Of a DNA stretch of 64,000 nt, positions 8,681 to 55,556 are shown in pieces. The position numbers and the translations under genes were made by a program. Location: positions 6,321,891 through 6,385,890 of the forward strand of contig JAJEKV010000035.1 in the NCBI GenBank assembly GCA_021234155.1, read 5' to 3'. The DNA is from Isoetes taiwanensis. Taxonomy: Eukaryota; Streptophyta; Lycopodiopsida; Isoetales; Isoetaceae. The notes under the pieces are model-generated. The model had not been told where the DNA came from. It ran no database searches and was given only the letters and a program-made list of their open reading frames with translations. The first letter of the stretch is position 1. Each line of letters opens with the position of its first letter.

Positions 8681-8755
8681 ACATGAATGTATAATCCATG
8701 AAAGTAAGACTTCAAAAACATCAAAATAGAGATATAAGAATAATAAATATTTCAA
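7850..8755 (-). pseudogene. LINE A reverse transcriptase domain, frameshifted
   Basis: The frame 8117-8755 carries the RT start: NKCPGLDGIPVEFFQKYW, ISLIPKCKHPKTINDWRPIT, then motif A FLKLDFAKAYDSVSW with its catalytic Asp. A stop at about 8117 interrupts it. In shifted frames the strand continues with motif B (RRGCPLAPSLF, near 8070) and motif C FADDTFLFLHADE (near 7925), so the catalytic Asp pair is still readable. At least two frameshifts separate the motifs. The amino-terminal 25 residues or so of the frame (above 8680) are host flank, not LINE. Confidence 0.85.
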
Positions 8756-9035
8756 TAATAATTTTTAGTACATCATTTCTGGCAGTAATATAATGTTAAC
8801 GTTGTCATGTTTTTTTGCTCAACTCAGCTTTATCCTTCTCCCCTGTCTGCTCCTTTGGTGGTCCACTTTTGGAACCTTAAAGGGTAGTCCACGTTTAGTT
8901 GTTCCATCAAACATGTTTGACGTTTTATGGGTTGAATAAAAAACAAGAAAATAATCAAGTACATAAATGAACACTAGGACACACACAACAAAAAATGTAA
9001 AAACAAATACACTTTTGCTTTTTTTAAAAACAAAC
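8681..9035. other. Intergenic, AT-rich
   Basis: Nothing recognisable lies between the LINE A truncation point and the first palindrome cluster. Confidence 0.5.
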
Positions 9036-13693: not shown

Positions 13694-15741
13694 TTATCCA
13701 CAAGAACCCCCGATATGTAAACTTTGGTCTATCCTTGTACCGAAGATCATAATCTTCGTCTTAGCTATGTTCACTTTCATATGCCTCTTTACACAAAATT
13801 CTTCCAAAGTGCATCCAAATGAGCCTCGTAATGCTGCCCCCTTAGTTGCCAAGAGTGCTACATCACAAGATACAAGTAATAATTGAATCACATATTCACC
13901 CAAAGACGGCCCCTCGCCAATGAATGAGCACGCATCCATTCGTCCAGTTCATCTATAAACAGACCAAATAGAGTAGGAGACAGTGGGCATCCCTGTCTTA
14001 CTCCAATGTTGTTTCTCACTATGGAGTTCAGGTCCCGTGCTATCGATATTAGAACTTCCGAATATAATTGTGTTACTGCTCCTTTAAGTTCATCTGGAAC
14101 CCCTAACTGCACCATGCGGTCTCCCAATTCATTCCTCTGGACTGTGTCAAACGCCTTAGTAAAATCAATGAAAGCAACATACAAGGCTTTATTTGGACTT
14201 TTTGCTCGTTCAATCAATGCTCTCAATGTCAAAACATGATCTAAAGTGTTATGTTCAACTCGGAAACCAGCTTGGCAAGGAGATCTTCTTTCATTCTGCT
14301 CGGCCCATGCACTCAACTTCTGTTCTAAGAGTGTGCCCAAGATCTTAGTAAACGTGCTCCCTATTAGAATCGTTCTGTAATTCTGAACCTGTCTTTTGTC
14401 TCCCGACTTATACACTGGATGGACCCTGTTTAATTTCCAAGTATCTGGTAGACCGAACTTGAGACTGTTATTTAGACAACTGGTCAGCTTTTCCATTGTA
14501 TTCTCACCACCCCACTTGAACAACTCTATGCACAATCCATGAGCGTCATGAGCTTTCCCACTATCCATGTTGGCTAATGCCTCTATCACATCTTCTGTTG
14601 TGAACAGATCTGTACTTGGGGCTGAGAAAAACATGTTATTTTCATCTGCCACTGCATATAGACTCACCACTAGTTGTTGTAGATCATGCTGATCTAAATT
14701 TGGCTGCTCGATCCTGCCTTGTAGCTTTTTCCAAAAGGCCTTGGGTGATACTATAAGCTGCTCACTCAGCTCCCTTAGCGTGTTTTTATAATACGTGCGC
14801 TTTTTCTGTCTCAAGAACTTTTTATACCATGTGGGTTTATGTCTGTAGCCAGCCGGAATTCTAGCCCGAGCTTCAGCACATTCCCGATCCCACCAGGCAT
14901 TATTAGGTCTCCCTTGTACTGGTTTTTTAGTGAAGCCAAAGATCTCTTCAGCTGCTTGCATAACTAAGCCAGCAAAATGCTTTTCATCATGTTGGAACAC
15001 TCCAGTCCACGCGTGCTGAGCCAACAGCTCTTCTATCCTTTGCTTATATGCCAGGTTATGCTTATGATTTATTTTGAGTCTAGGATGAAACAATTGCTGC
15101 TTTGAACTAGCTTCACACGACATACTTATATCCACCTGCAAAGGGATATGATCTGATTCGAATGCTTTCTCTCCCAAGGTAAACTGTTTCACCAGCATGT
15201 AATCACTTGCTGCCACATAATCCACTACGCTCGAACCCATGTGATTAATGCATGTGAACCCTCTAGAATTTTGAAACATGTTTAATCCATTCATAATTTT
15301 CAGATTATTCACAGTACATAATTCTAAAAGCTTTTCCCCGGTCATGTTCTCCAGACGATCATCTGATATCCTATGAAATTGCGGCTCATCTACTTCATGT
15401 AAATTCAGATCTGTTAGATTATCAAAGGTAACTGCCTGTTTACTTCCTATTCTTGCATTAAAATCTCCAATCAGCATTATGTCTCCTCGCCTTCTGTAAT
15501 TCGCCACGTCCATACATAACCCCTGGAAAGGGTCTGCCCCATCTAAATCTGAACTATTGTATATACTTGAGCCTGTAGGTGCAAAGTAGCACGCTCCTAA
15601 GAAAAGTTTCTTGATATGTAACCAAATGTATTGCCTATTGGTATCTCTCGATGCAATCTTAACTTTGTTCAGAAATGTTCTCGGACATATATAGCTATAC
15701 CACCAAACCCCGCCCCTGCTCCAATTCTTTTTTCGTTCCAT
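13694..15741 (-). pseudogene. LINE B ORF2: endonuclease and reverse transcriptase
   Basis: The 617-codon frame 15741-13888 has APE-type endonuclease motifs (MLIGDFNARIG; SDHIPLQVDI near residue 195 with the catalytic His), then RT motifs: AHDAHGLCIELFKWGGENT, motif A LYVAFIDFTKAFDTVQ and motif B GVRQGCPLSPTLFGLF. The frame breaks immediately before motif C. In the next frame (13939-13694) the expected YADD box reads LLLVSCDVALLA, so a small deletion plus substitutions have destroyed the catalytic Asp pair. Downstream VNIAKTKIMIFG is the normal motif D. ORF2 is therefore dead both by frame and by active site. Confidence 0.9.
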
Positions 15742-15901
15742 GTATGCTCCATCGAGTAAACCCCTCGATCTCGCAAATTTGGCGAGATTGATGTTCCCAT
15801 GTCTCTAATAAAACTAACAGATCCTTACTGTCCCATATGTGTCTTGTTGCTGCAATTTTAGCCTGACTTAAACCATGCACGTTCCAACAAACAACCTTCA
15901 A
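15695..15901 (-). pseudogene. LINE B ORF2 start (endonuclease N-terminus)
   Basis: The frame starts MKVVCWNVHGLSQAKIAATR, the APE endonuclease N-terminus with its catalytic Asn (WNVHGL). It continues to the acidic site LLVLLETW. It runs into a frameshift at about 15710, where the main ORF2 frame takes over. Its ATG lies 12 nt downstream of the ORF1 stop, the usual bicistronic layout. Confidence 0.88.
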
Positions 15902-19889: not shown

Positions 19890-22307
19890 ATGAAGTGCTT
19901 CAATGATAAAATGACGAAAGTCAAAGATTGGGTGAAACAATGGGGAAAAGACCTTGCTCAGAAAAGGAAAGCAATAATGACCAGCCTGTTGGAACAAATC
20001 AAGAATATCAGATCTGATCTTGAAAGCAATCCTAAGGATGACTCTCTTCATTTGAGAGAGGAACAATTAGAAATTCAGATCAAAGCTCTTGAAGAACACC
20101 AGGTTAAGGGGATGGCGCTTAGGAGTAAAGTTAAGATGTACAATCAATTGGATCATGAGAGTTCTAAAATGTTCTTTAGAATTGCTAGGAACAGGTTGGT
20201 TAATAACTCCATTACCCAGCTGGAATCTGAACAATGATCCACTCTTACAGATGAGAAGGAAATTGCCTCAGCCTTCCTCGATTTTTACACTAATCTTTTT
20301 AAAGATGAGTTGATAGACGATTGTAAAATTCAGGAAGTCTTTGATATCATTGGCCCTCCTAATGAAATGATGGATGATGACTGGACTGAAGTCCCTGAAC
20401 TTCCTGAAATCTTTGAAACACTTAAGAAAATGAAGCATGGGAAGAGTCCTGGTATAGATGGTTTTCAACCTGAATTCTTTATGGAATTTTGGCCTATTAT
20501 GAAGGAGGACATCATTCAATTTGTTCAGGGGGTTTGGAGAGCCAGCACTATTTATCCAACCTTCAATGTTGGGGTCATCTCTCTCATCCCTAAGACTGAA
20601 TCCCCTTCTAAAACCAATGAATGGCGCCCCATCTCCTTGACTACAACTTTATACAAACTTGTAGCTAAGATTATAGCTGGTAGAATTTTGGTTCACCTCC
20701 ATGAAAAAGTGAATGCCTGTCAATCTGCCTTTCTTCCCAGCAGATCCATACTGGATAACTATATAGCTGCAAATGAGGCTCTGCACTGGAATAGATTGAC
20801 CAAACAAAACTGCATCCTCCTCAAGCTGGACTTCAGAAGGGCTTATGACTGTATTTCTTGGAAATTCTTAGAGAAAGCCATGGTCCATATTGGCATTCAT
20901 CCTGCTCTCACTAAGCTCATTATGGGATTAAACCAAAAAGCCACTTCATGTGTTATTGTCAATGGGACTCCTACTGGTTTTTTCCACATTCAAAGAGGGG
21001 TGAGACAAGGCTGCCCCCTGGCTCCGTACCTCTTCATAATTGCTGCTGAAATTCTCACCAAAATGGTCCTCTCTTACCAAGATAAGGGTCTGCTCCAAGG
21101 CCTTCAAATGCCTGATTCCAATAAACAGCTTTCCATTCTTCAATATGCTGATGATACCTTTACCATGCTTAGAGCTGATAATGACAATATGAAGAATTTT
21201 ATGGACTGTATCTCTAAATTTAGTGCTGCCTCTGGGATCCACCTGAATTATGCCAAATGTTCTATCCTAGCTGATGGCTCGTATCCAGACCTTAATACGC
21301 ATGGCATCAAATTTGTTCCTAATGGCCAATACCTGACTCTTTTAGGCCTCCCCCTTGCAGTTCATATGTCCCATAAGATTGCTTGGCAGCCTCTGATTAA
21401 TAGGATCAGGAAAAAGCTTATCCTCCTTAAAGGTTTCTTGTCTCTGGCTCGGAGGATTTTGATTGCCAACTCTGTCCTTGCTAGTAGCCATGTCTATTTC
21501 TCTTCTGCTTTGATTGCTGACAAGGCTTCCTATAACAAAATTGAGCAATGTATTAAAGAGTATATTTGGCAAGGTACACACCTATCTGCCTGGGATCAGC
21601 TGACTCATAGTAAAAAGTCAGGGGGTCTGGGATGTAAATCCTTATTTCTCCAGGCCCAAGTGCTTGGGGCCAAAAATGTGTGGAAAGCCATTTCTGGTTT
21701 CCAATCTCCTGCTATGGATTTTATTAGGTTCTGGATTAATAAAAGTAAACCCTTAGGAAGTCCTTCCCTTAAGCACCAGCTCCCAGATTCTGCTTTCTAT
21801 GAGTTCAAATGTGCAGCTAATACTTCTCCTCTCCTTAGAAGTATCTTTAAAGCATGGGAGAAAGTGGCTGCTAACTTTACTCATGACAAATTGTCCAATT
21901 CAGTGAGAGATACTTCCATATTTTGGTCTCCTGTGATGGCCCCTTCCTCCTACTCTGCTATGGCTATTTGTCACCCTACATGCTACAAAAAATGGCACTC
22001 TGCTAATATTTTGCATGTCAGAGACCTCATTGATGATGAGGAAAATTGGATTCCTTGGGAAGTGATCAAGAAGAAAGTAGGAGGGGGTGCTACTCATAGA
22101 TCGATATATAAGAAAGTGGTGCTCACCTACTCCCCTTTCTTAGGCAAAGATGGCAAGGGGGAGAGTCACTCCCCCCTGAACTGGTTTTTCAAGGTTAATA
22201 GGAGCTACAAAGTATCTAAGATATGCATGTCTTCCCCAGAAAAGCAGAAAGCATGCCTCTCTCCAGGGCTTATCTTCCAAGAATTTCAAGAAGATTCTTC
22301 ATTCTAG
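19890..22307 (+). pseudogene. LINE C ORF2 reverse transcriptase, nearly intact
   Basis: One frame runs from 19890 to 22307 with a single internal TGA at 20235-20237. RT motifs are all present: HGKSPGIDGFQPEFFMEFW, GVISLIPKTESPSKTNEWRP, motif A LLKLDFRRAYDCISW, motif B RGVRQGCPLAPYLF and motif C LQYADDTFTMLRADN with the catalytic Asp pair. The thumb-like region follows (SAASGIHLNYAKCSILADGS; LPLAVHMSHKIAWQPL). Compared with LINEs A and B this RT is much better preserved, so the insertion is probably younger. A frameshift just before 22307 moves the sequence into the next frame. Confidence 0.92.
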
Positions 22308-23091: not shown

Positions 23092-24709
23092 TGTGACGTC
23101 CCCTACTCGCATACGGTGCCCTCACCGTATACAAACAGGAGTTCATCCCCCATACCAGCTCCATGCTAATACAGGGCCCTCCACATGACACCGCAACCGC
23201 GGGGACAGTTCGATTGGGAAGAGTGGAAGGGTCATTGCACCCCGTCTCCCTCAGGGCCTACCTAGCTGCGGAAGCGTAAACATACATGTCAGTAGCACAT
23301 ACATCAACATCATATGACCATCACGAAGGATGGTCCTCCACATATCTGCATAGACAAAGATCAGCACATCACATAGGGAATCCTACCCAAGGCTCAGACT
23401 CAAAGGGATGACTGACGGCTTGGGTCTCCAGAGTTCATTGCAGACAGAATTCATGGCAATGGATTTGGCTGGCATAAGAACATGGCATAGGGTTGTCCAC
23501 TCCATCCGCCCCTCACATTGCACACTTTGCAGAGTAGGCTGAAAAGTGTTGGGACCTGACTGTAGCCCGCCGGATGCATAGCCAAGGGGGCTATATCCTG
23601 GGTTGCATCTCCCCAGTTCCGATGGGGCAGGTAGGGATCACTCCCTCCAGAGATCTCCATGCTGACTCAAGGTGACTAGAGGGCCACTGCCCGTATTCGA
23701 CTTGAACTCAATGGAAGGTCATATTCACCACCTCACGAGTGTCGAGCCCATGCCTTGCCCACACGCAGTGGCAAGCCATTAGACCTAGTCACAATGATCC
23801 CCGGCAGTCTTTACACACCAGAGGGATCGTTCAAGAGTCAAGACATGAACCTCCTTCTCAGCCAGTCTGGCCCCTTCACCCACATCCCGGTGTGGCTCTT
23901 GTGCACAGGCCGAATCTATAGTGTGCTAGAGAGGCTAATCTAGGAGCATCTACTACCAAGCTTTAGGTCTCTACCCCCCTTCCCAATACAAGGAGTTCAC
24001 AGAGATACATCATCCATATACATCACAGAAGAACTAAAGAACATAGATCTAATCTATATCATAGAGTTAGGTTCTTTAGTTAGAGTCTGGTATCTACTCA
24101 TCTAGAGATCTAGATAGCTGCTAAAGGCGATTTAATAGGCTAAACCCCTCGATACAATGACCCGAAAACGGTTTAGACCATTAAATCGACTACATACCTG
24201 ATCCATGAGTTGCTCCTCCTGACCTGAGTTCGACCATCCTACTGAACTGCTCGAATCAAGGGAAACTAATGGTGCCATTCTCTCAGACAGAGTCTGGGAG
24301 GCGGTTTTGACTCCTAGAGCAGCCAAAACAGAGCTCTAAAACCCTAGGAACGAAAATGGGCAAGTTAGGGTTCTTCTACTTAAATAGGCAAGGGTTGGGG
24401 CTTAGGGTTTCCAATTATCCCTTTAGGCATGTGGGATAATTGGAAATGGGCCCACTTGCCTTTAATGGCTAGGTGGCCAAATGTGCCTACATGGAAATGT
24501 GTGCACCTAAATGTGCCCACATGGAAATGTGTGCACCTTAATAAATGTGCATGTGCACATTAATAAGAAGTGCACATACCTAGCAAGTTGCCCCTAGGGC
24601 TACTCACTGGCTACACGTCGTACCGTCGGGTTGGAGTGGTGGTACGCAGCGTGACGAGACAAAGATCAAGATATCGCCCCGGGACCGGTATCTTGGCCGG
24701 AACGCCACA
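23092..24709 (-). repeat. 3' LTR of the nested element
   Basis: 1618 bp, ending TGTGAC...GCCACA on the plus strand. It is collinear with 33049-34670 over its whole length, with long identical blocks (for example 23655-24060) and a few short, heavily altered patches. Within it a roughly 30-bp unit (AAATGTG..TACATGGAAATG) is duplicated near 24478-24540, in both LTRs. Confidence 0.92.
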
Positions 24710-24722
24710 TTCTCCCCACCTT
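24710..24722 (-). promoter_or_regulatory. Polypurine tract
   Basis: AAGGTGGGGAGAA on the minus strand abuts the 3' LTR, the position where plus-strand DNA synthesis is primed. Confidence 0.7.
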
Positions 24723-24837
24723 GAAATGATCTTTGCCCAGCAAAGATCGTGGGTCTCCCCCACCTTGGAATCTTCCTAACCCGCAATCAACCCGATGCAT
24801 ACGATATACTACTATTATACTTACACATTTATTAAGA

Positions 24838-25335
24838 TTACCTTAAGGTAATATTTTTAAATTATTATTACGCCATTACATTATCAATTAACTTGTCAAT
24901 TCGTAACTTCTATTAAAACAGGGTACTTATTAGTCCTCGTTATTATAACATTTAGTTTATCACAATTTAACACTTTCATATACAATTATTATTTAAGGTA
25001 CTCTTCATTCCTTGCAACACATTCCAACAAAATTTGTGTTGCAAGTCCTGACCTTAAAATCCTGCATTAATTTTACAATATCTATAATTACATACTTACT
25101 ATTACTATCTTAATTATTAGAATTACTCTAAGGTAATGTTTAAGACATTCTTGTACTATTTCATTACCCAATTAACTTATCACTTCATAACTTAATCTCA
25201 CGCCAAGGTAATTATTAACCTTACTTAACACAACATTTAAGTTTATCAAAGTTTATCAATTTCATACAAAATTTACACTTCTAAGGTACTCTTCATCCCT
25301 TGCAACACATTATGACTAAATTTGTGTTGCAAGTT
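24838..25335. repeat. Diverged ~290-bp tandem repeat, each copy ending in a hairpin
   Basis: Copy 1 (24838-25050) and copy 2 (25126-25335) share the order CTAAGGTAAT..., CAATTAACTT, AACATTTA, AAGGTACTCTTCATYCCTTGC. Each ends in the hairpin CTTGCAACACA...TGTGTTGCAAG. They lie next to the polypurine tract, so they are in the 3' untranslated part of the element. Confidence 0.7.
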
Positions 25336-28300
25336 TTCAGAAATAACTTCGACCTCCTTGCTCTCGGGGGCTCTATTGGCCGCAGGGTCGACCCACGTTA
25401 TTACTATTTTAATTATTAATAAAATTTTGGTTATATGGTGACCACCCACCTATCTACATGGATGCATGGCTAATCTCCGTAGGAAGAGGGTGAATCTTCC
25501 ATTATGGCCGTGGAGGCAGCGCGCCTATATGCCTATATGCCGCTCATGCCTACACCTCTAGTTGCCAGGCGTGGAGGATATCCTTCCAGCGTGGGGCGTG
25601 AAGGATAGCTTCCTCCTATCAAAGCATATATGGGGCTAAAGGTGCCTTTCCTATCAATGCATTCTGAATGACCTCCTTTCTTCGAGAGGTCGTCTACTTA
25701 CGTGGGAGAAGTAGACTTTCTAATCTACCTTCCACTTTCGTCCAGCGGAACGCGGTCATGCCTACATTGACATTACACCCGCCCTAGAGATCGCGTAGTG
25801 GTCTCATCATCGTAACAACGCATGCAACCCCTACCTAGCATAGGTTGCATGCGTAGATTAATCTTAACTATACAAGCATTTAATCTACACACAAAACGAC
25901 ATGCCTGAGCCGATTTTTGCTGGCTCCGTTAATGCATGTGATTGACATAATTACCCTACGGTAATATTTATGAATTAATATTATCATAGTATCGGATACA
26001 TTACTTCCGATAGTACAATTATATTTACTCTAAGCTTTGCAATTTTTAACGACTTTTAGATCGCGATTATTTGAACAATAACCCTGATTTAGACCTATTG
26101 TTACATAGACAAGGTTTTAATTATCATACACAAGAATTAGATGTGCTTCTTATTCTCCTCCTTGGGTCCTGCATTACCCTTGGAAGTATATCCCTAAGAT
26201 GCACTTAAGTATATTTGAATTCTATTTTCTATCTATATCTATAAGGACCCCAAGGTCATATGGCTATCCTTGAAAGGAATTGCATCCTTGCGAAGGATTA
26301 ATTAACATGCTACCTCAGATTATCGTTGTTATTTAACTTATTTCCGTATGATACATATACGTACAGTAATTCCATGCAATTATTAGGACCTATATTTAAC
26401 TTATTTATAAGACACATTAAAGCTTATAATGCATGCGTACGCCTTACCTAGGCTAGAATGCATCCACCCATTGAGCCGGCGTCGACTAATTTGGAGATGA
26501 CTTGGTCGTTGCATTGCTCCCATAGTTTTGCTCCACTTCATTGGTGTAGATAGCTACTGCGTCAGTCTCGCACGTTGAAGACCTCCTGAGCTATCTATCT
26601 ATCTATCTTGTGCTCTATTCGCTTCGGCCATTGCCGGAGTGAACTCTATTCTATGGGTCAGTCAATTCGATGCAAGTACGTTCAATCATAAGATTGAGCC
26701 CTCCCACTTTCTTCAAAAAGAAAATGGTCCTGCACCCCTTCAATGACGTTGTACACAACGTCATATCTATTCTCTCCCCTTAAGAGGTTATATGCTTCTT
26801 ACTTAGCACATTAATTTACTAGCCTTAGCTAACATATATAACCATCTAAGATGGATGCACATATTATGTTATCATTTATTTCAATATAGCTATGGGTTAC
26901 CTGCTTAGTTAGAATGATTCTAAACCACAAGGTTTTGTCATCATGACAATTCCTTTTGTCTCAAAAGACTATTTGATTACTATAATTCTTATTTTAGATG
27001 TACCTTACATGTATTATTCTTTTATATTCTAGAGATTCCCCCTTTCTTAGTTATTTAGCTCTTGGAATATTCCTACCAATCGAATTGATGTCATCGTAAC
27101 AAGTTGGCCGGACTTGTTAGATTACTTCTTTTCTTTCGGTTGGATTATTCTTTGGAGGTACTAGATTTATACATGGTTAACAATTATCCTAATAATGATT
27201 CCTTCTTAGCGAGGAGATCAATCTCACCAAGTGGTTTCAATACGTTGGATGTCTGTTAACAATCGTGTATAATTATAGTTACTCCTATGCATTTCCTTCC
27301 CAATCCTTGACGCTTAGCTCAATATTGGGGCAATCCTTTAGAGAATATGGAAATGCCTTCTAATCCCAATATGGATGTTACCGTCCATACATTAACCTAC
27401 TAGGCCCCATGGCCTTAGATCCTTGAGCTTGCTAGAAGCTCATCCACTCGTTGCCTGCTTGAAGTAGCAAGGTAATGTTCTTCCGAGTCGCTCGATACTT
27501 CAGTCTCCTTGACGGTGGCTCCTCTTTGATGTAGAGGTTGACTTTGTTCGTTAGAAGCCTCGCATTGCTTGATGGTGTAGTTGAACACTTGAAATCTTCC
27601 ATGCCGCTTTTCAAAAGCCTGAAGGTGGCGCCGTTGAAAAAAAATCTTTCATCTTGAACTCTTTGTCTTGGCAGCTAAAGGATGACTCTGTATCCGATAT
27701 TGTTTCTTCGACTCCATCGATGTCTCATACGTCGAGTCCTCTTGTCGTTATCGTGTTGCCCGAAGAGTGTTGACGATGTTGATTGCTTCACCCCTGCAAC
27801 TTGCATGACATCTCTTCCTTTGATGTGTTACGCTATGGGAGGGAAGAAATAACAAGGGAACTATACATGCACAACATATAGCTTACATAATTACAATTAC
27901 TACTAGAGCTATTAGGTCTCCCTTGTGCCTCCCTTCGAGTTGGACACCTACTCCTTGGCAATGTCATCGGTGTTCCTCCCGGTGCAATGGTGTTGACGAT
28001 CTATATCCTCCTATTTGTACGTCGGCTCGTACTCCGGGGTAACTTGTTGATATACTTGGGCCCTCCGATGTTTGTCGGCTATGGCACAACCGCTTTGCAT
28101 CACATTCTAACTAAGGTGTGCTTGTCGTTGATGCTTCGACATTTCAGTCTGCTTCCTGATCCTGTTCTCGGGCGGTAATTGTTCTTCCTTCATGATACTT
28201 GAAGCTATTTGAAGGCGTCTCTTGAGGCTGTGCGCGATTCCTTTGGCTATACTCCTCTGGAGTTGTTCTCTTCTGTAGTTGTTCTTTGAATCGTCCATCC

Positions 28301-31300
28301 TTGGGTTCACCAAGTTGCATGCAAGTCCGTGTGCAAGTCATCGGCTCGCCTCGCCTAGATGCTTCTCCATCGAGCTTCTAATCTTCCCTGTTTGCTCCCC
28401 TCGATCACATGGCTTGGATGTTGTCACGTTGCGCAGTGCTATGCCGTCTTCTTGTCTTGAGGTACCCTCCGGTGACTTTGATTGTGCTCGTCAGTTTTGA
28501 TCCTCCTGTTGCCTCTAGGGAGCTCGTGGAAGAAGTCGGTTGCTAGCACTTCTCCAGCTTTCAGTTCCGGACCTTTGTCTCTCTATGCATGTCGGCCTCT
28601 CTGGCAAGTAAGGCTTCATGGCTCTTCTCCCTGCTGGCGATGTTGTCGGGATGATGGATCCTTATATCTGCGCAGCTTGACCCTTGAGTTGAAGAAGTAC
28701 CTGCCTTAGATATGCTCTTGTCGTTGAATAGCCTGGCTATTATCTTGAACTCTCTTTTTGCCGAAGGTGCTTTAGTTGTTATCCTTGTCGTTAAGGTGTC
28801 GAATGCTTCTACCTTGGGCGTTTGACGTGCCACATGTCGGAGATATGATCGGCTTCTTCTCTTCTAATTCTTGGTAGGAGTACGGTGAAGCCATCACCTA
28901 GTTCTTGAAGGCATATCTCCTCATCGCGATTGCCTTTTCGTAAGTGCATCTCCATCTAATACACGTGTCATAGCGCATCACCCTATATTACCACAAGGTG
29001 GAATTATGGTTGTCGAGATGTTGCCTTCTTAATTGGCTCATTGATGTCGGGGCGTTCCTTCTTCTATTGTTGAGGCCACTTTCGTGTCATAAGTTAGGTC
29101 AAGTGTTGCTGCTGCCACAAGATGTAGTGTTTGCGTCTCGACGATGTCCCAGTCTGCGCTGATGATCTTGACATGACCGGTATTATCTCTTATTCGACAT
29201 TGGGTGGACGAGTTGTCTTCTACTTCAGGCCACTTCCGGAAGTGTTTGGAGTCGAAGGTTTGCTTGGCCTCCGGTCGTTTCTCCCTCGTACTTGCTCTTC
29301 CATTTTGATCTTGGGCTATAGTTGTGCTTCTATGCTTCCTCTTTTGGTAGTCGAAGTGAAGGAGCTTCTGATCTAAAGCGCTAAATCCGTAAAACATGAC
29401 TCTAAACTCATGTTTCTCCATCGTATCTGTGAGCACCGAGATATACAATAGACATATACGCATTTACATTGGGATTTTAATTCATCGACTTTTTCAAAAC
29501 AACTCACGAAGATCTACTTAATTGTTTATACTCCTTTAGGGTTTCCCCTCCTCCTATCGCATTTGACCCTTTTGTTTTCTTTGCATCTTCTTTGTTACGG
29601 TTGACTCTCGGGATTCCTTTGAGATCTTTGCTACTATTGTTGAGCTTCATGTCCGATCCGAGCTCGTCCACGCCCGATTCGCGAAGAGTGTTCGTCGATG
29701 TGATCCCTTGAGAAAGATGCTCCTCCTTAATGTGTATATTCGTCGTGAGGAATGCGGTGACCGCTCAACGTCCCTACATGCAGTGTGTCATTGCAGGGTT
29801 GCCGATGTGCGGTGCCATTGGTCGCTTGAGTAGGATCACCTAGCTGTTGCAGTTGGGCATTCTTGGATATCTTGAGCTCTAAGATCGTGGTCGGTGGCGG
29901 GCATTGGCATTCCTCCGCGGGTTGAATTTCGGTCGACTCCATTTGCTTGGGCTTTGCTTCATTCGAGGTGCCTCTCACATTGCCTAGAAGTGTGGTCATC
30001 TCTATTGTCCCTACCATGGCTCCTTACGGTCGCCTTTGCATGATTTGTATCTGGCGGCTGGGTCGTCTCCTCCGTCCCTTTGGGTCCTATCCATTCAAAT
30101 CTACGCACTCCTTGGGCGGCGTAGTAAGGTCGTCCCTTCCTTTGGTTTCTAGGTGTTTACGGGTCCCGAATTGCTTTGTTGTGAGAATATTCTCCTCCTT
30201 GATCTTGCCCCTAATGCTGATATAGGCCTTCAAGTTGAGATGTTCCCACGATATCGTCTCCTCCCTCGTGGCCTCCTTTGGTGCAAGGGAGCTAGAAGCT
30301 CATCTTGGTCAGCCTTACTAGGTGCTTTGTGGTTGCCTAGCTTGGTGGCTCCTTTTTTGTTGGCGTTGCGACATTCGCTTGAGTTGCTGGGCTGCAAGTC
30401 GAGGTGGTCTTCTCTCCGGTTCCTATCGCTCTGTGCCGCCATGACTTCTCTCCTCGACGGAAGGTTATGCCCCTCGGCCCTAGCTTCGTGATGCTAACGG
30501 TATCGATGTCTAACGTCTTCCTGCACCTATATTTTGTTGCCTTGCATTCCTCCATTTGAAACTCATGTGCGTTGAGTCGGTGAAGGCGTCGAGATCCTCT
30601 TTCTGATGTGACCTCGTCGTGATAGCCGGGAGGTTGACACCTAGAAAATTCTTGATGCCGTTGGTTACCAATTATTCTTCCCATTTGATGAAGATTGATG
30701 ATAGGCCGGTGGTGTCTGTTCTACTCGTTTGTCGGTTGAGGTGTTTCTCGTTGTGCTTCCCTCTCTTGGGTGCGCCTTTTCGGTCTCCTCTCCTTATGCA
30801 TGCAGTACATCGTTTGGGACCTTGATGTCTTCAAGGAGTTGCGCCTCAAGCTCTTCGTGGCTCGGCCCGTGCTTCGAAAAGCAACGCTCGTATTTCCCTA
30901 GAGTCTAAGGTCTACTTGAAGGGCTCTCCTACAACATTACGGGGCTCTATAAGCAAGCAAGGTGGCTCGGCGGCATTCTTGGAGACATATCTATAATCTA
31001 CAAGTCTATGGATATTAGGGCGTGTGGTATGGCATGACATGAGGATTGTTTTGCAAGACCTCCATGATGTTTGAGGCATACTCTAAGGTCCTAACAAAGT
31101 TGGTTTGGGAAGTCCAATCTCTACACATGGGCGGCTTGGGCAGGTTCTAGACTCTAGCTCCTTTCTAGGTACCCGGCAATAGGGAGTGTGAATGTGGCGG
31201 CTATATAAGTCAAACTCTATTAGAAGGACACGTAATTAGGTCAAGGTTTATGCCTTTGGCATGAGCGAGGGAGGTGATGTACCCCAGGTTGGACTTGGGT

Positions 31301-31600
31301 TGCTATCTTTGAGGGTCTAGATGACTATAACAAAGGGGTGTTCTTGGGCACTTCTATCTAGGAGTAAGGTATCAGCTTCGAGCTGAGAGCAATACTTGCG
31401 AGCTACTAATGGGGTAGGCTTCTATCTACAAACAAACTACAGTTTGGAAAAACAATTCAAGGGTTTGGGCAATTTTGGTCAATTTGGGCTAGGGTTTGAC
31501 ATTTCTAGCCTAATTTGAGGTCATAAATGGATTCTAGGCTATCTAATGGTCCTATTGCAACAATTTTCAGACGATTTGGAGCTCTGTAGCTCAAGTTATG
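25336..31600. other. Retrotransposon interior with no recognisable protein domain
   Basis: About 6.3 kb. Part of it (27400-30900) is A/C-rich on the element's sense strand and holds several charged open frames of 60-140 codons (29463-29038 is the longest). None carries RT, integrase, protease or zinc-knuckle motifs, and the frames do not join. Either it is strongly decayed gag-like sequence or non-coding filler. Confidence 0.5.
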
Positions 31601-31618
31601 GAGGTTCAAAGTTTGGAG

Positions 31619-31885
31619 GTCTCACAGGTTGCGCCCTGCTCAAAAACTAAAGTTTAGTTCTTTGACCAGGCGCGAGCTGTGAGACATTGGCTGTAAATTG
31701 GGTTAAACGTGTCCAATTTGGGTGATCTAAGGGTCAAATCATGCTAGTCTCATCGAGTTAGGCAGAATGGACCCCTTACTTGGTCAATTTGGAGGTGTTT
31801 TGGTCAAGTTTGGGCGAGGTCTCACAGCTTGCGCCTCGCTTCAAAACTAACTTTTTGTTTTGCGACCAGGCGCGAGCTGTGAGAC
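31619..31885. repeat. Two 67-bp hairpins, 200 bp apart
   Basis: 31619-31685 and 31819-31885 each begin GTCTCACAG, have a 20-nt arm ending TTGCGCC, a loop containing AAAACTAA, and close with CCAGGCGCGAGCTGTGAGAC. The arms are complementary. A third full copy is at 32627-32693 on the other side of the H3-like ORF. Confidence 0.85.
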
Positions 31886-32062
31886 ATCACACTTTTTTGG
31901 TCTGAGAGTATCCTATTTTACTAAAATAAAACTACTACTTGCTAACTCGTCCTAATTAAGCAAGATTTGACACATAAACTACTCAAAATTATCATGTATT
32001 AACAAAATTATTGATTATTTACAACATATCTACTGGGGATCTCCCTTAATTAAACTAGCTAA

Positions 32063-32278
32063 TTACATGCCTTCCCTCATGAGGGTTACTCGCTTCGCAT
32101 GAACAGCGCAGGCTGTTGAGTCTTCAAAATGTTGGACCAGCTTCTGCTCTGCTGCTTTTTGAGCCTTGGCCTCCCGCTCTCGTTCTGTCCTCTTCTCTTC
32201 TTGTTTCGTTCGGCCTCCTTGGCCTCTGGCTGTTTCGCCTTGTCGAGAAAGTCGAGCGGTCTGTTTGATGCGCATCAT
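32063..32278 (-). CDS. Histone H3-like mini-protein encoded by the LTR element
   Basis: A 71-codon frame on the element's sense strand, starting ATGATG about 760 nt downstream of the primer site and ending TAA. Residues 2-11 read MRIKQTARLS, aligning with the H3 tail ARTKQTARKS: K4, Q5, T6, A7, R8 and S10 are kept and K9 is Leu. A second RTKQ stands at 23-26. Residues 27-46 are a charged, helix-prone linker. Residues 47-67 read LVQHFEDSTACAVHAKRVTL plus M, matching H3 100-120 at 14 of 21 positions, including Cys110, His113 and AKRVT. The H3 alphaN and alpha1 helices and most of alpha2 are absent, so it cannot form a normal histone fold. What remains is the tail recognised by chromatin enzymes and the end of alpha2/alpha3 that contacts H3' and DNA. 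Possible roles (chromatin targeting, interference with H3 modification) are inference. The frame upstream of ATGATG is open to a stop but has no earlier ATG. Confidence 0.75.
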   Translation of the reverse strand: MMRIKQTARLSRQGETARGQGGRTKQEEKRTEREREAKAQKAAEQKLVQHFEDSTACAVHAKRVTLMREGM

Positions 32279-32419
32279 GTCGATCGAAGTCCTGGTGTCT
32301 ATCGAGATGCTGTCTCTATCTAGCTTAAGGGCCTTGGTTCTAAATCTAAGGCTTAGCCATTAATATTATCTAACATTATTAAAGCTTAAATCTAATTAAG
32401 AATTATAATTCAAACACAA

Positions 32420-32505
32420 AGCGATGCCGCCGATTGGTTGGCACGGGGGGGTGGGGGGTTCAACCCTGTGGGTGGGAGGTTCAATTCTCGCTACCGCGGG
32501 AATTC
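32420..32505 (+). other. tRNA-like A-box/B-box remnant
   Basis: GCCGATTGGTTGGCAC resembles a D-arm/A box. GGGAGGTTCAATTCTCGCTA, about 45 bp later, resembles a T-arm/B box, and the ends (GCGATGC and GCTACCGC) pair only partly. It could be a decayed tRNA or tRNA-derived SINE. No intact cloverleaf can be drawn. Confidence 0.25.
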
Positions 32506-32626
32506 TTTTAAGATGAGGTTCAAAGAGATTGAAAAACTAGACTAGTCTAGCTAGATCCTAGGCTAAGATTCGAATTACCAAGCTATTTTTTTAAATTTTA
32601 TAACTTTTCAAGCTGTTGTCATCAAT

Positions 32627-32693
32627 GTCTCACAGCTTGCGCCTCGTCGCAAAACTAAAGTTTAGTTATTGAACCAGGCGCGAGCTGTGAGAC
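32627..32693. repeat. Third 67-bp hairpin, in the element's 5' leader
   Basis: Same length and arms as the hairpins at 31619 and 31819 (GTCTCACAGCTTGCGCC and its near complement). It lies between the primer site and the H3-like ORF in sense orientation. Confidence 0.85.
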
Positions 32694-32916
32694 CACCTTA
32701 CCTGGCTCATTCTTTTTAGTTTTATTAAGTTCCAATTCACCTAACTGTGCTAATATTAAATTCCAATCCACTTAACTGTTACTAGCTAAAGTTTAGTTAT
32801 TGAACCAGGCGCGAGCTGTGAGACCACCTTACCTGGCTCATTCTTTTTAGTTTTATTAAGTTCCAATTCACCTAACTGTGCTAATATTAAATTCCAATCC
32901 ACTTAACTGTTACTAG
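32655..32916. repeat. 131-bp near-perfect tandem duplication
   Basis: 32655-32785 and 32786-32916 read identically by eye. The unit begins CTAAAGTTTAGTTATTGAAC, so the second copy carries only the right half of the 67-bp hairpin. Confidence 0.9.
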
Positions 32917-33035
32917 CTTAGCATAAACTACAAAAATGAGAAAAAAATTTCCCACTTTTCGAGGTTCGAGGATCCTATCAAGTTAGTACTACTGGGAGCA
33001 TGGCCAGTGCTTTGCTCTTGGTCTCCAAGAACATT

Positions 33036-33047
33036 GCTCTGATACCA
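33036..33047 (-). promoter_or_regulatory. Primer-binding site, initiator Met tRNA
   Basis: TGGTATCAGAGC on the minus strand, one base from the LTR. It is complementary to the 12-nt 3' end of plant tRNA-iMet, the usual primer for minus-strand synthesis in plant LTR elements. Confidence 0.92.
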
Positions 33048-33048
33048 C

Positions 33049-34670
33049 TGTGACGTCCCCTACTCGCATACGGTGCCCTCACCGTATACAAACAGGAGTT
33101 CATCCCCCATACCAGCTCCATGCTAATACAGGGCCCTCCACATGACACTGCAACCGTGACGGGTTCCAGTGGGAAGAGTGGAAGGGTCATTGCACCCCGT
33201 CTCCCTCAGGGCCTACCTAGCTGCGGAAGCGTAAACATACATGTCAGTAGCACATACATCAACATCATATGACCATCACGAAGGATGGTCCTCCACATAT
33301 CTGCATAGACAAAGATCAGCACATCACATAGGGAATCCTACCCAAGGCTCAGACTCAAAGGGATGACTGACGGCTTGGGTCTCGAGTTCATTTGGAGGCG
33401 AATTCATGGCAATGGATTTGGGCGGCATAAGAACATGGCATAGGGTTGTCCCCTCCATCCGCCCTCACTGTGCACACTTTGCGTAGTAGGCTGAAAAGTG
33501 TTGGGACTGGCAGTAGCCCGCGGATGCATAGCCAAGGGGCTATATCCCGGGTTGCATCTCCCGGTTCGATGGGGCGGTGGGGATCACTCCCCTCAGAGAT
33601 CTCCATGCTGACTCAAGGTGACTAGAGGGCCACTGCCCGTATTCGACTTGAACTCAATGGAAGGTCATATTCACCACCTCACGAGTGTCGAGCCCATGCC
33701 TTGCCCACACGCAGTGGCAAGCCATTAGACCTAGTCACAATGATCCCCGGCAGTCTTTACACACCAGAGGGATCGTTCAAGAGTCAAGACATGAACCTCC
33801 TTCTCAGCCAGTCTGGCCCCTTCACCCACATCCCGGTGTGGCTCTTGTGCACAGGCCGAATCTATAGTGTGCTAGAGAGGCTAATCTAGGAGCATCTACT
33901 ACCAAGCTTTAGGTCTCTACCCCCCTTCCCAATACAAGGAGTTCACAGAGATACATCATCCATATACATCACAGAAGAACTAAAGAACAAGATCTAATCT
34001 ATATCATAGAGTTAGGTTCTTTAGTTAGAGTCTGGTATCTACTCATCTAGAGATCTAGATAGCTGCTAAAGGCGATTTAATAGGCTAAACCTACTGATAC
34101 AATGACTGGAAAACGGTTTAGACCATTAAATCGACTACATACCTGATCCATGAGTTGCTCCTCCTCGACTGAGTTCGACCATCCATCCCAACTTGCTTTC
34201 GAATCAAGGGAAACTAATGGTGCCATTCTCTCGAGGCAGTGCAGGGAGGCGGTTTTGACTCCTAGAGCAGCCAAAACAGAGCTCTAAAACCCTAGGAACG
34301 AAAATGGGCAAGTTAGGGTTCTTCTACTTAAATAGGCAAGGGTTGGGGCTTAGGGTTTCCAATTATCCCTTTAGGTATGTGGGATAATTGGAAATGGGCC
34401 CACTTGCCTTTAATGGCTAGGTGGCCAAATGTGCCTACATGGAAATGTGTGCACCTAAATGTGCCCACATGGAAATGTGTGCACCTTAATAAATGTGCAT
34501 GTGCACATTAATAAGAAGTGCACATACCTAGCAAGTTGCCCCCTAGGGCTACTCACCTGGCTACACGTCGGCGTACACGTCAGTTGGAGTGGGCGGTGTG
34601 CGGCGTGATAGATAGCGATTATCGTCTGGGCCCCGGTATCTTTGTCTTTGGCGGCGAATCCTGAGGGTGC
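33049..34670 (-). repeat. 5' LTR of the nested element
   Basis: 1622 bp, collinear with the 3' LTR. The promoter side is at the high-coordinate end. Its last 35 bases or so (34635-34670) no longer match the other LTR, so the terminal TGTGGC is not visible on this copy. Confidence 0.9.
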
Positions 34671-37633: not shown

Positions 37634-38686
37634 TTTCTAGGAAGCTTCCTTTTTTGTAAAGGTGAGGCGCACATCTTTGGATTTCTCTAGTCGAGAACTT
37701 TCCAATGAATGATGCTTTGGCATCGTTCTGTCGCAGTTGGAGTCAATGTGATCGAATTCTAAGAATCTTCTTGGAATTTTAGAATTTTATGGAATCTACA
37801 CTAATTTATGGGAATCTAGGGGAATCTCCATAGAATCCTTGAGATTCTATAAGAATCTCAAGAGAATCTTGGAGAATCTATAGGAATCACAAGAGAATCT
37901 TTGAGAATATAGGGGAATCTTGATGGAATCTTGAAGAATATAGGCGGATCTACATAGAAACTTGAAGAATCTAGAGAAATCTTGGGATCTCAACATCTTA
38001 AGGAATAATGGAAAAATCTAAAAAGAAGAATCTTAAGGAATTTATGGAAATCTCAAGAGAATCTTTGAGAATCCAGTAGAATCTAAGAGATATATCTTTG
38101 TATTTGGCTTCTAATTGGATTTGTACAATCCCTAACTCATACAGAGTTAGGGACTGTACAAATCCAGCTAGAAGCTAAATACAGAGATATATCTCTTAGA
38201 TTGTATTGGATTCTCAAAGATTCTCTTGAGATTTCCATAAATTCCTTAAGATTCTCGTCAAATTTTTCCATTATTCCTTAAGATCTTGAGATCCCAAGGT
38301 TTCTCTAGATTCTTCAAGTTTCTATGTAGATCCTCCTATATTCTTCAAGATTCCATTAAGATTCCCCTAGATTCTCAAAGATTCTCTTGTGATTCCTATA
38401 GATTCTCCAAGATTTCTCTTGAGATTCTTCTAGAATCTCAAAGATTCTATGAAGATTCCCCTAGATTCCCATAAATTACTGTAGATTCCATAAAATTCTA
38501 AGATTCCAAGAAGATTCTAGAATTGGATCACATTGACTCCTAACCACCATTGTAATGCCAAAGCATCACTCATTGGAAAGCTCTCTAACCAGAGGAATCC
38601 AAAGATGTGGGCCTCACCTTCACGACCCTTTGCAAAGAGGTTACGGGCCTTTGAAGGCCGTTATGAAAAAGGAAGCTTCCTAGAAA
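37634..38686. mobile_element. ~1.05-kb foldback element with AGATTC-rich arms
   Basis: The outer ends TTTCTAGGAAGCTTCC (37634) and GGAAGCTTCCTAGAAA (to 38686) are inverted. The arms remain complementary through the conserved block around TTTCCAATGA.TGATGCTTTGGCA, ATTCTA...ATCTTCTTGGAAT and the AGATTC arrays, to a centre at about 38138 (CCCTAACTC-ATACA-GAGTTAGGG). The right arm has about 47 bp (near 38620-38668) absent from the left. No ORF. It could be a foldback transposon; transcribed, it would make a long double-stranded RNA. Confidence 0.8.
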
Positions 38687-38870
38687 GTGCACTTGTAAAA
38701 TGTTTTTGCCACCTCATTACTTTTTTTTTATTTATGATGGTGCCACCTCACCTCCTTTAATATAAAAAAATACAATTTAATTAACAGAATAATGGTAGGA
38801 TTTTTCCTTCCCTTTTGGTCTAACGACTAAAGATTGGCAATACCAAATCCACCCTATGAAGGATTGTGTG
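38521..38870. repeat. Terminal module, copy 1
   Basis: Contains GGATCACATTGACTCC, CATTGGAAAGCTCTC, GGAAGCTTCCTAGAAAGTGC and GCCACCTCACCTC. It is followed by an AT-rich stretch and a GGTAGGATTT...CTTTTGGTCTAA phrase. It matches 40915-41260 at the same relative positions next to an AGATTC array. Confidence 0.75.
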
Positions 38871-38885
38871 AAGCCGACCCTGCAA

Positions 38886-40914
38886 AACACACCTTCGCAT
38901 ACATTCCTCAAGATTCTATGTAGATTCCCTAGATTCATTCAATTTTGATAAAGATTCACCTAGATTCCCCTATATTATCAAAGATTTTATGAAGATTCCC
39001 TTGGATTCACCTAAATTCTCAAAGATTTTTCTAAGATTCCCATAGATTCTATTGAGATTGCCATAGATTCCCAAAGATTGTCTCAAGGTTCACCTAGACT
39101 CCCCAGGATTCTATGTAGATTCTCTTGGATTCCTTTAGATTCTATGAAGATTCTCTTAAGTTCTATAAGATTTCATCAAGATTCCCTTAGACATATAAAG
39201 ATTCTCTCGAGATTCCCAAAGATGCCCCAAGATTCCCCATGATTCTATGTAGATTCTCTTGGATTCCCTTGGCTTATATAAAGATTCTTTTAGGTTCTCC
39301 ATGATTTCATCAAGATTCCCCTACATTCTTAAAGATTCCTTTAGATCATATAAACATTCCTTTAGATTCCATCAAGATTCCCCTAGATTCTTCTAGATTC
39401 TCCTAGATTCCCAAAGATTCTCCCAATATTCACATGGACTTCCCAAGATTCTATGTAGATTCTCTTAGATTCTCTAAGGTTCTATCAATATTCCCTGGAT
39501 TCTCAAATATTCTATGAAGATTCCCTAGATTCCCATAAATTCTCTCGAGATTCCCAAAGATGCCCCAAGATTCTATGTAGAATCTCTTAGATTTCCTTGG
39601 CTTATATAAAGATTCCTTTAGGTTCTCCATGATTTCATCAAGATTCCCCTAGATCCCTAAAGATTTTATGAAGATTCCTTCAAATTCCTTTAGATCATAG
39701 AAAGATTCCCTTAGGTTCTCCAAGATTCCATGAAGATTCTCCTAGATTCTCTCAAGATTCACATAGTTTTCTCAAGATTCTATGTATATTTTCCTAGATT
39801 CTCTAAAATTCTATCGAGATTCCCCTAAATTATCAAATATTTCTATGAAGATTCCCTAGGTTCCCATAAATTCTCTCGAGACTCCCCTACATTCCTGAAG
39901 ATGCCTCAAGATTCACCCAGATTCCTCATGGTTCTATATAGATTCTCCACAATTCCATCAAGATTCCCTTAGATTCCCAAAGATTCTATGTAGATTCCTC
40001 TAGATTCTTCTAGATTCTATGAAGATTCCTTTAGGTTCTCCAAGATTTCATCAAGATTCCCAGGGATTCCCCTCGATTATTAAAGATTTTATGAAGATTG
40101 CTTTAGATCATATGTAGATTCCCTTATGCTCTCCAAAATTCTATCAAGATTCTCCTAGAATCTCAAAGATCCCATCAAGATTTCCAAATATTCTATCAAG
40201 ATTCACATAAATTTCCCAAGATTCTATGTAGATTCTCCTAGATTCTCTAAGATCCTAGGAAGATTCCCCTAGATTCTCAAATATTCTATGAAGATTCCCT
40301 TCGATATCCTTACATCCTCTCGAAATTCCCCTAGATTCCTAGAGATTGCCTGAAGATTCCCAAGGTTTCCATAAATTCTCTCGAGATTCCCATAGATCCT
40401 CAGAGATCGTCCCAAGATTCACCTAGATTTCCCACAATTCTATGTAGATTCCAGTAGATCCTATGAAGATTTCCTTGGGTTCTCCAAGATTTCATCAAGA
40501 TTCCCCTAGATTCTTAAAGATTCCATCGAGATTCCCCTACATTCCGAACTATTCTCTCAAGATTCATATAGATTCCTCAAGATTCTATCTAGATTCTCTA
40601 AGATGTTATGAAGATTCCCCTGGATTCCCATAGACCTCTTGAGGTTCCCATAGCCCCCAAGATTCTCTTGAGATTCCCTAAATTCCCAAAGACTATTCCA
40701 AGATTCCTCTATATTCCCAAGATTCTATGTAGATTCTCCTAGCTTCCCTGAGATATTATGAGGATTCCCTAGATTCCCAAAGATTCTCTTGACATTCTTC
40801 AGATTCCCTAAGGTTCTGTTGAGATTCCTCTAGATTCCTAAAGTATCGATGAAGATTCCCCTAGATCCCCTTAAATTACCATAGATTTTGTATTGTTCTA
40901 AGATTCTAAGAAGA
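38886..40914. repeat. ~2-kb degenerate AGATTC array
   Basis: AGATTC or close variants recur almost continuously at spacings of about 10-12 bp (AGATTCCCCTAGATTCTC, AAGATTCTATGAAGATTCCC). Higher-order phrases recur about every 30-50 bp, such as TCTATGTAGATTCTC and TCCATCAAGATTCCC. There is no coding capacity. The same array, in inverted orientation, makes the arms of the adjacent foldback. Weak relatives are at 45650-45820 and 60890-61010. Confidence 0.9.
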
Positions 40915-41260
40915 TTCTTAGAATCTGATCACATTGGCTCCAAGCTGAAGCGAAATAGTGCCAAAACACCGGTCATTGGAAAGCTCTCGGCGAGAAGGAT
41001 CAATGGCACCTGTGTCTCACCTTCATCAGAGCCTACGTCACGCAAGTTCGTGCCTTTGAATAAGATTAAGAAAAAGAAGTTTCTTGGAAAGTGCATTCAT
41101 AAATGCTTTGCCACCTCACTAACTTTTTATTAATGAGAGTGCCACCTCACCTCTTTAAAAAAAAAAATATCAATTTAATATAAAAGGTTAAGGGCTAGGA
41201 TTTATCCTCACCCTTTGATCTAATGGTTACAATCTGTTGCACCAAATCCACTTTTTGGCA
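40915..41260. repeat. Terminal module, copy 2
   Basis: Diverged copy of 38521-38870: GATCACATTGGCTCC, CATTGGAAAGCTCTC, TTTCTTGGAAAGTGCATTC, GCCACCTCAC and GGCTAGGATTTATCC in the same order. Confidence 0.75.
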
Positions 41261-54479: not shown

Positions 54480-55556
54480 ATTTCTATTGCTTCTTTTTGG
54501 GCTTCATTGCATAGTTGTCTGTAATAACACTCTGAATCATTTTTTGCAGCGATGACTAGTTTGAGTGATGCAGTGGATCTACATTAAATTTCACGAGTTC
54601 TTTCTCTCTTCCGCTACGTTCAATATTTATATGGATATGGAAAGCCTTCAAACCTCATTCCATAAAACGTGCTTCTAGGATTCACGTTATATATCTTAAA
54701 TGCCAGCATGTGTTCCATATGTATTGCTTCGAACATTTTAGTGTCTGCTCTACTCTCACATCTGTAGAGTTCAATAGGCTTTCATTGAACTATGCACATG
54801 ATGGAACCACGTGCTTCATTTCTGGTTGTTACCTTTGGGACAAAGGACGTTTCAGTTGTGAGATTATTAGATGTTGTAAGCAGCTGCGAAATGTCATAGA
54901 CAGTCATTTCAGGCATGCTAGAGACAACGAACCTTTTGTCATCACAATTTGATAGGAGCTGTATTTTACAAACATGTGAGTTCCCTCTATGCATGCAACT
55001 TTGCAACAATTTACCATTTTACTTTGGACATCGTTGCTTTGGAGGTTCTTTGGCATTGGAAGATGAGTCTTCAGCATATTGTTGATTTTTGCTCCTTTTC
55101 TTGCTGATTTTTGTGCAATGTCTTAATGTTTGCAAATCCAATGTTTCAGGAACTGCAACAATAGGACAGATCAACAAAGCATGTTCTATAATGTTTTGCA
55201 AGATTTTGCACAAGCTCCAAAATTCGTAAGGTCACAAAGATTTTTGGGAATTGCAATGTCATATTCGTGACCACCAAATCATTGCCTATGACCAAATGTT
55301 TGCTGCTTCAACTTTTCAGAAAAACATGCTCGTAAGTTTTTTGCCTGAGGTTATGTTGTGCCTTATTTTGGAATATATTAGCAGTATGCCCAATCAATGC
55401 CATAGTTGCGCTGGAAATCCATTTACTGGTGTAAATATTTTGTTTTATATTTGGCATGTTCATGATGATGAATCATTTTTTGCAGCCATAACTGGTTTGA
55501 CCTAGATTGTCGTCTTCTATTTCTTGAATGATAACATTACATGAATTGTTTTGCAG
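54480..55556. other. No supported gene; short direct repeat
   Basis: TGAATCATTTTTTGCAGC followed by a diverged GATGACTAGTTTGA/CATAACTGGTTTGA occurs at 54533 and 55468. Otherwise nothing is recognisable. Confidence 0.4.

Follow-up and report, generated by a model that had tools for sequence, protein, structure and literature searches.

A histone H3-derived open reading frame in a high-copy LTR element family of Isoetes taiwanensis, with a near-complete H3 in its Ty3/gypsy relatives

Introduction

The silencing of retrotransposons acts via histone H3 marks, which in plants are mostly placed at K9. Some LTR elements are themselves non-autonomous, e.g., those of the LARD type, which have LTRs, a primer site and a long internal region without gag-pol. 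Core histones are also encoded by certain parasites, such as Marseillevirus, which has histone doublets.

Several described systems resemble, in one respect each, the elements reported here. Orchid Ty3/gypsy elements carry an AlkB-type m6A RNA demethylase ORF (PMC9289625) and, like the present elements, represent a plant Ty3/gypsy family with a host gene as an additional ORF that may counter host control; unlike them, they encode an RNA-demethylase enzyme and no histone, and both mentions of "histone" in that paper refer to chromodomains and demethylases. The LTR elements of bdelloid rotifers likewise hold captured ORF3s, extra genes acquired as modules (PMC5408684), but these encode esterase, exonuclease and envelope proteins, and the abstract of that report is without mention of a histone. 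The chromodomain integrases of plant Ty3/gypsy elements (PMC3350952) also tie a retrotransposon to host H3 chromatin, but they read H3 marks such as H3K9me (PMC12786077), whereas the elements described here encode H3 itself. Among viruses, bracovirus H4 joins host nucleosomes, after which its N-terminal tail alters host gene expression (PMC9145170, PMC5423620); such viral histones share with the present elements a parasite genome encoding a core histone, but they belong to DNA viruses and not to retroelements, and a review of them (PMC9145170) contains no word beginning with "retro".

Among the titles and abstract openings listed in searches of open-access full texts, we found no described retrotransposon with a core histone. 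The word "histone" is absent from articles on additional ORFs of plant LTR elements (PMC7264820), on Retand elements (PMC11963269) and on gene capture by the LTR elements of rice and sorghum (PMC3726574), as well as from the Isoetes sinensis genome paper (PMC10541799). A paper on CENH3 loci and retrotransposons (PMC8603533), considered as a possible precedent, deals with insertions near CENH3 and not with capture.

A small ORF homologous to histone H3

The window (the whole 64,000-nucleotide stretch of Isoetes taiwanensis DNA analysed here) contains a 71-codon ORF followed by TAA at 32063–32278 on the minus strand (ORF list and alignment); the plus strand of this interval does not hold it, and its placement on the element's sense strand in the preliminary description is correct. 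Codons 1–20 (32219–32278, minus) align to H3 1–20 with R2, K4, Q5, T6, A7, R8 and S10 retained and with A1 changed to Met, T3 to Ile and K9 to Leu, in agreement with that description, which had reported K4, T6, A7, R8 and S10 as kept and K9 as replaced by Leu. Codons 30–71 (32066–32191, minus; PDB match, alignment and dN/dS) correspond to alpha2, loop 2 and the start of alpha3, henceforth the C block, and the 14 of 21 identities to H3 previously counted at residues 47–67 were recovered exactly. As that account also held, most of the histone fold is missing: of the complete alpha1-L1-alpha2-L2-alpha3 arrangement, the ORF has just the C-terminal alpha2, L2 and alpha3, with alpha1 and half of alpha2 absent.

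A phmmer search of PDB chains with the ORF matches H3 (E 9e-7), and the Pfam Histone model gives E 2e-4 at 22 bits, which lies under its 26.4-bit cut-off. In the reciprocal direction, a tblastn search of the window with H3 returns a single match at E 1.3e-9, the next (E 2.6) being the tail block. Shuffled ORFs attained the H3 score of the C-terminal part in 0 of 20,000 cases and that of the N-terminal part in 8 of 20,000. Judged from these alignment statistics, the ORF is homologous to H3 beyond chance.

Codon 72, which aligns with a Gln of H3, is TAA; past it the frame continues as LASLIKGDPQ and a TAG stop at the end of H3 (32030–32062, minus), aligned with LARRIRGERA-stop of H3; in copies that have Gln in place of the stop, this segment is in frame. 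Because the TAA takes the place of an H3 Gln and in-frame H3 homology continues beyond it, the window ORF is truncated by a nonsense codon. The window copy has thus lost its last 11 residues through a nonsense mutation and is probably decaying; the ORF typically measures 82 codons in most copies that lack this TAA.

The LTR element carrying the ORF

The ORF lies between two LTRs of ~1.6 kb each, placed by LTR alignment on the minus strand at 33049–34650 (5′ LTR, outer end uncertain) and 23092–24709 (3′ LTR). They are 94.6% identical over the blastn-aligned part, and 1,515 of 1,632 ungapped columns are identical when the divergent outer end is included. A primer-binding site, TGGTATCAGAGC (33036–33047, minus), which we take to be of the initiator-Met tRNA type, adjoins the 5′ LTR, and a purine-rich tract, AAGGTGGGGAGAA on the minus strand (24710–24722), adjoins the 3′ LTR, as in an LTR retrotransposon. 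With its primer-binding site next to the upper LTR and on the minus strand, the element has minus as its sense strand. TG...CA ends are observed for the lower LTR and, of the upper LTR, for the inner end, the outer one being unclear. By eye, no exact 5-nt duplication is seen at the edges.

The H3-like ORF is the first recognised ORF after the primer site, ~760 nt downstream of it, and the only recognised coding part of the internal region (24723–33035, minus). The scan of the window element covered all 37 minus-strand stretches of at least 45 codons and found gag or pol domains in none of them, though a short or frame-broken gag-pol could escape it. Among 20 further genomic contexts (see below), none of the 14 sense ORFs of at least 150 codons beyond +300 has a gag or pol domain; one such ORF, in L068, has a weak transporter-family match (7e-4) under the family cut-off. 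Searches with the gag, zinc-knuckle, protease and ORF3 pieces of the gypsy relative (see below) gave nothing below E 0.09 in the window or the 20 contexts, and Rfam gave nothing on the element at gathering scores. The window element, in which the gag and pol domains of an autonomous Ty3/gypsy element were not found, looks non-autonomous. It shares LTRs, a primer site and a gag-pol-free interior with LARD-type elements, but where these have a non-coding internal region it adds a recognisable ORF with a constrained block (see below).

The two LTRs differ in clusters, with 300 columns at 100% identity beside 100-column stretches with 7–11 mismatches. These clusters could reflect polishing errors in the assembly, gene conversion or recombination, and they make LTR dating unsafe. 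The leader has a perfect 131-nt tandem duplication (32655–32916). Palindromic modules of ~67 nt, GTCTCACAGC...GCTGTGAGAC, stand on either side of the ORF (31619–31685, 31819–31885 and 32627–32693, with a half copy to 32824); as RNA they are far stabler than shuffles (z −7.1 to −9.4), and they are possible hairpins for packaging or small RNA. Similar modules are present in 13 of the 20 contexts; in seven of these they are paired, lying near +393 and +607 relative to the start of the ORF. In eight of the 20 contexts (L050, L053, L055, L057, L060, L062, L064 and L067), sense ORFs of 155–253 codons have their starts between +1361 and +1712, counted from the start of the H3-like ORF; they lack a match to gag or pol families and are possibly a second, broken element gene.

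Elsewhere in the window, three ORFs have a reverse-transcriptase domain, non-LTR in type by look (13888–15804, minus; 20238–22307, plus; 8117–8764, minus), and the second of these precedes an ORF whose end at 23088 almost abuts the lower LTR, which starts at 23092. Repeats of 31 nt form a large array at 37700–41000, which also has long inverted repeats, and 54569–54952 (plus), with a weak Vps8-type RING finger match below cut-off (E 8e-4), is possibly an exon of a host gene.

Copies across the genome

A search of the window's own genome (1,658,258,908 bases; 1.66 Gb) with the 71-residue product gave 6,564 candidates at first look. Each of the 150 that were scored proved to be a match; the matched stretch is free of stops in 96 and has one or more in 54. 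We examined codon by codon a set of 57 copies, made up of the 48 best matches and nine lower ones and thus drawn mostly from the top of the similarity list. An ATG and no stop in codons 1–71 are found in 42 of the 57, and 32 have no stop across codons 1–78; the window's TAA is common to 12 and absent from 45.

We also retrieved 20 contexts of ~10 kb, 11 from the 44 best matches and nine from farther down the list. All 20 align with the window element, 19 over 8.0–11.5 kb and one (L054) over 4.3 kb, with 80–93% identity in the main aligned pieces. Ten of the 20 have the exact primer-site 12-mer 232–1,050 nt ahead of the ORF, and L063 has it at +5. The ORF is flanked by direct repeats in just six contexts, since 10 kb is often too short for both LTRs. 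A host-derived ORF is therefore present in many copies of one LTR element family, as the assignment of an H3-derived ORF to an LTR element had proposed. A one-off H3 pseudogene, or an element without further copies, either of which the preliminary description had named as fatal to its proposal, is ruled out by the 150 scored matches and by the same element in 20 of 20 contexts.

In L067, the tail and C block are farther apart and in different frames, with a stop between them. The L067 piece, used as a query, gave 7,633 candidates, of which 150 were scored. In the top 34 rows the match spans 84 or more of the 92 query residues, and 29 of these rows have open frames 92–98 residues long. For several dozen further rows, the match starts at residue 23 and includes a TAG in a common register, which we infer to be one shared codon. 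The idea that such longer copies retain a full-H3 ancestor was rejected, the central part of L067 not being H3-like by shuffles. Relatives of the window ORF were absent from IMG/VR and phage records, two sets that do not contain plant genomes.

Ty3/gypsy relatives carrying a near-complete H3

With H3 as the query, the same genome gave 9,022 candidates, and the 150 scored consist of 15 canonical genes (96–98% identity) and 135 others (71–86%). A stop is absent from 129 of the 135 non-canonical matches and present in six, and 51 of them lie in open frames of at least 400 residues. With H4 as a control query there were 69 candidates, every one of which was scored; 43 matched, including 16 full-length genes. 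Histone H3 is expanded in this genome and H4 is not.

Three of the 135 non-canonical matches were read (L069, L070 and L074). A contiguous 8.4 kb (L073, L069 and L071) displays an LTR end, then the window's primer-site 12-mer and, shortly after it, a 409-residue ORF (from the first Met; L069) that ends in an H3 fold (Pfam Histone, 1.7e-40). Next come a second ORF, at most 482 codons long, a stretch of 165 codons and then pieces of Retrotrans_gag (7e-5, just under cut-off), a zinc knuckle (8e-4, under cut-off) and an aspartyl protease, RVP_2 (1e-7, above cut-off). These pieces do not all share one frame; the beginning of a reverse transcriptase is visible by eye. Neither the second ORF (L069:1912-3300 and onward) nor the 165-codon stretch (L071:358-852) has a Pfam match. 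L070 has the same first two ORFs, and in the gypsy copies read the ~410-residue H3 ORF stands upstream of gag. Between L069 and L070, dN/dS is 0.05 for the H3 part, 0.05 for an N-terminal part and 0.06 for ORF2. Used as a query, the N-terminal part gave 3,652 candidates, with 131 of the 150 scored free of stops; this domain lies just upstream, on the same strand, in at least 46 of the 135 non-canonical H3 matches, and it has no PDB relatives up to E 1.

At E 1e-6, the gypsy LTR matches LTR sequence in 15 of the 20 contexts as well as the two LTRs of the window (72% identity over 696 nt in L055; 82% and 76% over ~145 nt in the window), and the window's primer-site region is 77% identical to that of the gypsy copy over 61 nt. 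By this LTR similarity, the window family is a relative of the gypsy family, and its H3-like ORF occupies the same first position as the gypsy H3 ORF. The H3 tail is absent from the two complete gypsy ORFs read, whereas the small ORF has it at its N-terminus; L074, a candidate H3 that might have retained its tail, proved to be a further gypsy copy in which a stop precedes the fold. In place of the FED and Gln of host H3, three gypsy copies have FGD and Ala. At five positions at which these three share a residue unlike that of host H3, the ten small-ORF copies compared show the host residue at two (E in 9/10, Q in 6/10) and the gypsy residue at none. On thin evidence, these residues and the tail make it less likely that the small ORF is a cut-down gypsy H3 ORF and fit two captures.

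Constraint in the C block and a possible docking role

Across sequence lineages, codons 47–80 show dN/dS of 0.04–0.09 in six pairs, with dS near saturation (pS 0.61–0.73). Among variants found in at least five of the 57 copies, those in codons 58–78 are 15 synonymous and five nonsynonymous (P 2e-7 against neutrality), as opposed to none and six, respectively, in codons 1–57 (Fisher P 0.002 between the two). The low cross-lineage dN/dS and the synonymous excess indicate that the C block was under protein-level constraint; between sequence lineages, this alpha2-loop2-alpha3 block is strongly constrained. The preliminary description had named neutral dN/dS and stops in most copies as grounds for abandoning its proposal; the cross-lineage values speak against neutrality, while stops do occur in the 54 of 150 scored copies given above. 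Between the small ORF and host H3, synonymous sites are saturated and the dN/dS ratio is not obtainable.

We posit that the small ORF was built from a histone H3 gene, with a K9-to-Leu tail and the second half of the fold joined by a charged linker that replaces the first half of the fold. Lacking alpha1 and half of alpha2, its product should not form an H3-H4 pair; it does, however, keep the C-block surface, which in H3 we take to be that of the H3-H3′ four-helix bundle and the contact with the chaperone ASF1, and it might bind there. Since almost all of the histone fold is retained in the gypsy H3 domain, its pairing with H4 is plausible. Accommodating both, we tentatively favor, at somewhat below even confidence, an accessory H3-derived gene of a high-copy LTR element whose protein, like the gypsy H3 protein, docks element products to chromatin or to H3-H4 chaperones. 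This docking account builds on the homology, the copies and their context, the K9-to-Leu change, the constraint on the C block and the gypsy ORF, and the expansion of H3 and not H4; it supposes that the ORF is translated, that its product meets such partners and that the element would benefit. Against it count the missing alpha1 and half of alpha2, the stops in 54 of 150 copies, the TAA shared by 12 of 57 and the position of H3 R129, presumably a chaperone contact, which is Leu, Tyr or His in 51 of the 57 copies, as well as a dN/dS of 1.15 in a pair within one subfamily (L001 versus L011).

In our view the most probable role is docking, to H3-H4 or a chaperone; a decaying passenger is a serious rival, and a tail decoy comes next. 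The passenger reading, which we consider quite possible though improbable on balance, is that a captured H3 fragment is now functionless and decaying in the element and that the constraint on the C block derives from other elements or from the source gene. It draws on the same within-subfamily pair, on the nonsense codon that the window shares with other copies and on the same-register TAG in many rows of the L067-piece search. The stops in scored copies favor it too, as the elements multiplied nonetheless; indeed, subfamilies multiplied with a stop in the ORF, such that each copy did not need a full protein of its own. It further accords with a divergence step inside the ORF: between two subfamilies, DNA identity is 81–98% from −251 to +158, 52–80% from +159 to +486 and 75–88%, with one stretch at 59%, from +487 to +855, while upstream of −333 it drops to 44–60% in a gappy alignment. 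This step (codon ~54 to ~+480) points to recombination with older sources; the selection may have taken place earlier, in unseen source elements. What tells against a mere passenger is that 96 of the 150 scored copies are without a stop and that the C-block lineages keep the protein even with synonymous sites near saturation.

A broader reading, which we regard as rather unlikely, extends from the gypsy relatives: their clade would encode its own H3, which would pair with H4 and enter nucleosomes, where an element domain of 300 residues would replace the host tail, leaving no normal H3 tail to silence; the half-H3 of the window's relatives, with its unmethylatable K9-to-Leu tail, would act on the same host pathway.

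The tail block and the decoy alternative

The K9 position is Leu in 53 of the 57 copies. An exact DNA pattern around the K9 codon, with the codon itself left free, has 121 genome-wide matches against none for a reversed control, and the codon is Leu in all 41 of the 121 that were read. Counting the start Met, Thr4, Lys5, Gln6, Thr7, Ala8 and Arg9 are present in 51–53 of the 57, and the T3 position is Thr in 52, so the Ile of the window is not family-wide. Such near-uniformity of the tail, together with the 121 matches, is what favors the decoy proposed in the preliminary description, in which the K9-to-Leu tail occupies writers, erasers or readers of H3K9 and H3K4 and weakens silencing of the element. 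We nonetheless judge it unlikely, and the proposal is not supported by the data. The tail shows almost no variation of any kind: pS over codons 1–46 is 0.00–0.05 in the seven pairs compared, and since even synonymous sites barely vary, uniformity does not demonstrate protein-level selection. Moreover, the residue following the start Met is Ala in just 10 of the 57 copies, the S10 position is Pro in 32, and the proven constraint sits in the C block. A second RTKQ at residues 23–26, also pointed out in that description, does exist in the window copy but is private to it (residue 24 is Thr in 1/57 and Arg in 54/57), and we reject it as a functional second tail or a family feature.

In all sampled lineages, the module that starts near −130 and extends to codon ~53 is almost the same. 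Over codons 1 to ~53 and the ~130 nt upstream, synonymous change is near-absent, beside a near-saturated C block. This uniform leader module may reflect either recent spread by recombination or RNA-level constraint.

Lastly, a resemblance to H3 by chance or low complexity, for which one might invoke an E/R/K-rich linker able to match many proteins, is vanishingly improbable in view of the shuffles of the C-terminal part, the PDB match and the homology that runs past the stop to the end of H3.

Significance

A small H3 ORF in many copies and a near-complete H3 in relatives together suggest that these elements have captured and kept part of the host chromatin machinery. If this is true, H3-encoding elements and a half-H3 relative changed at position 9 would constitute a direct weapon against silencing or a docking device. 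The finding opens the testable question of whether a retroelement-encoded H3 enters nucleosomes, and where.
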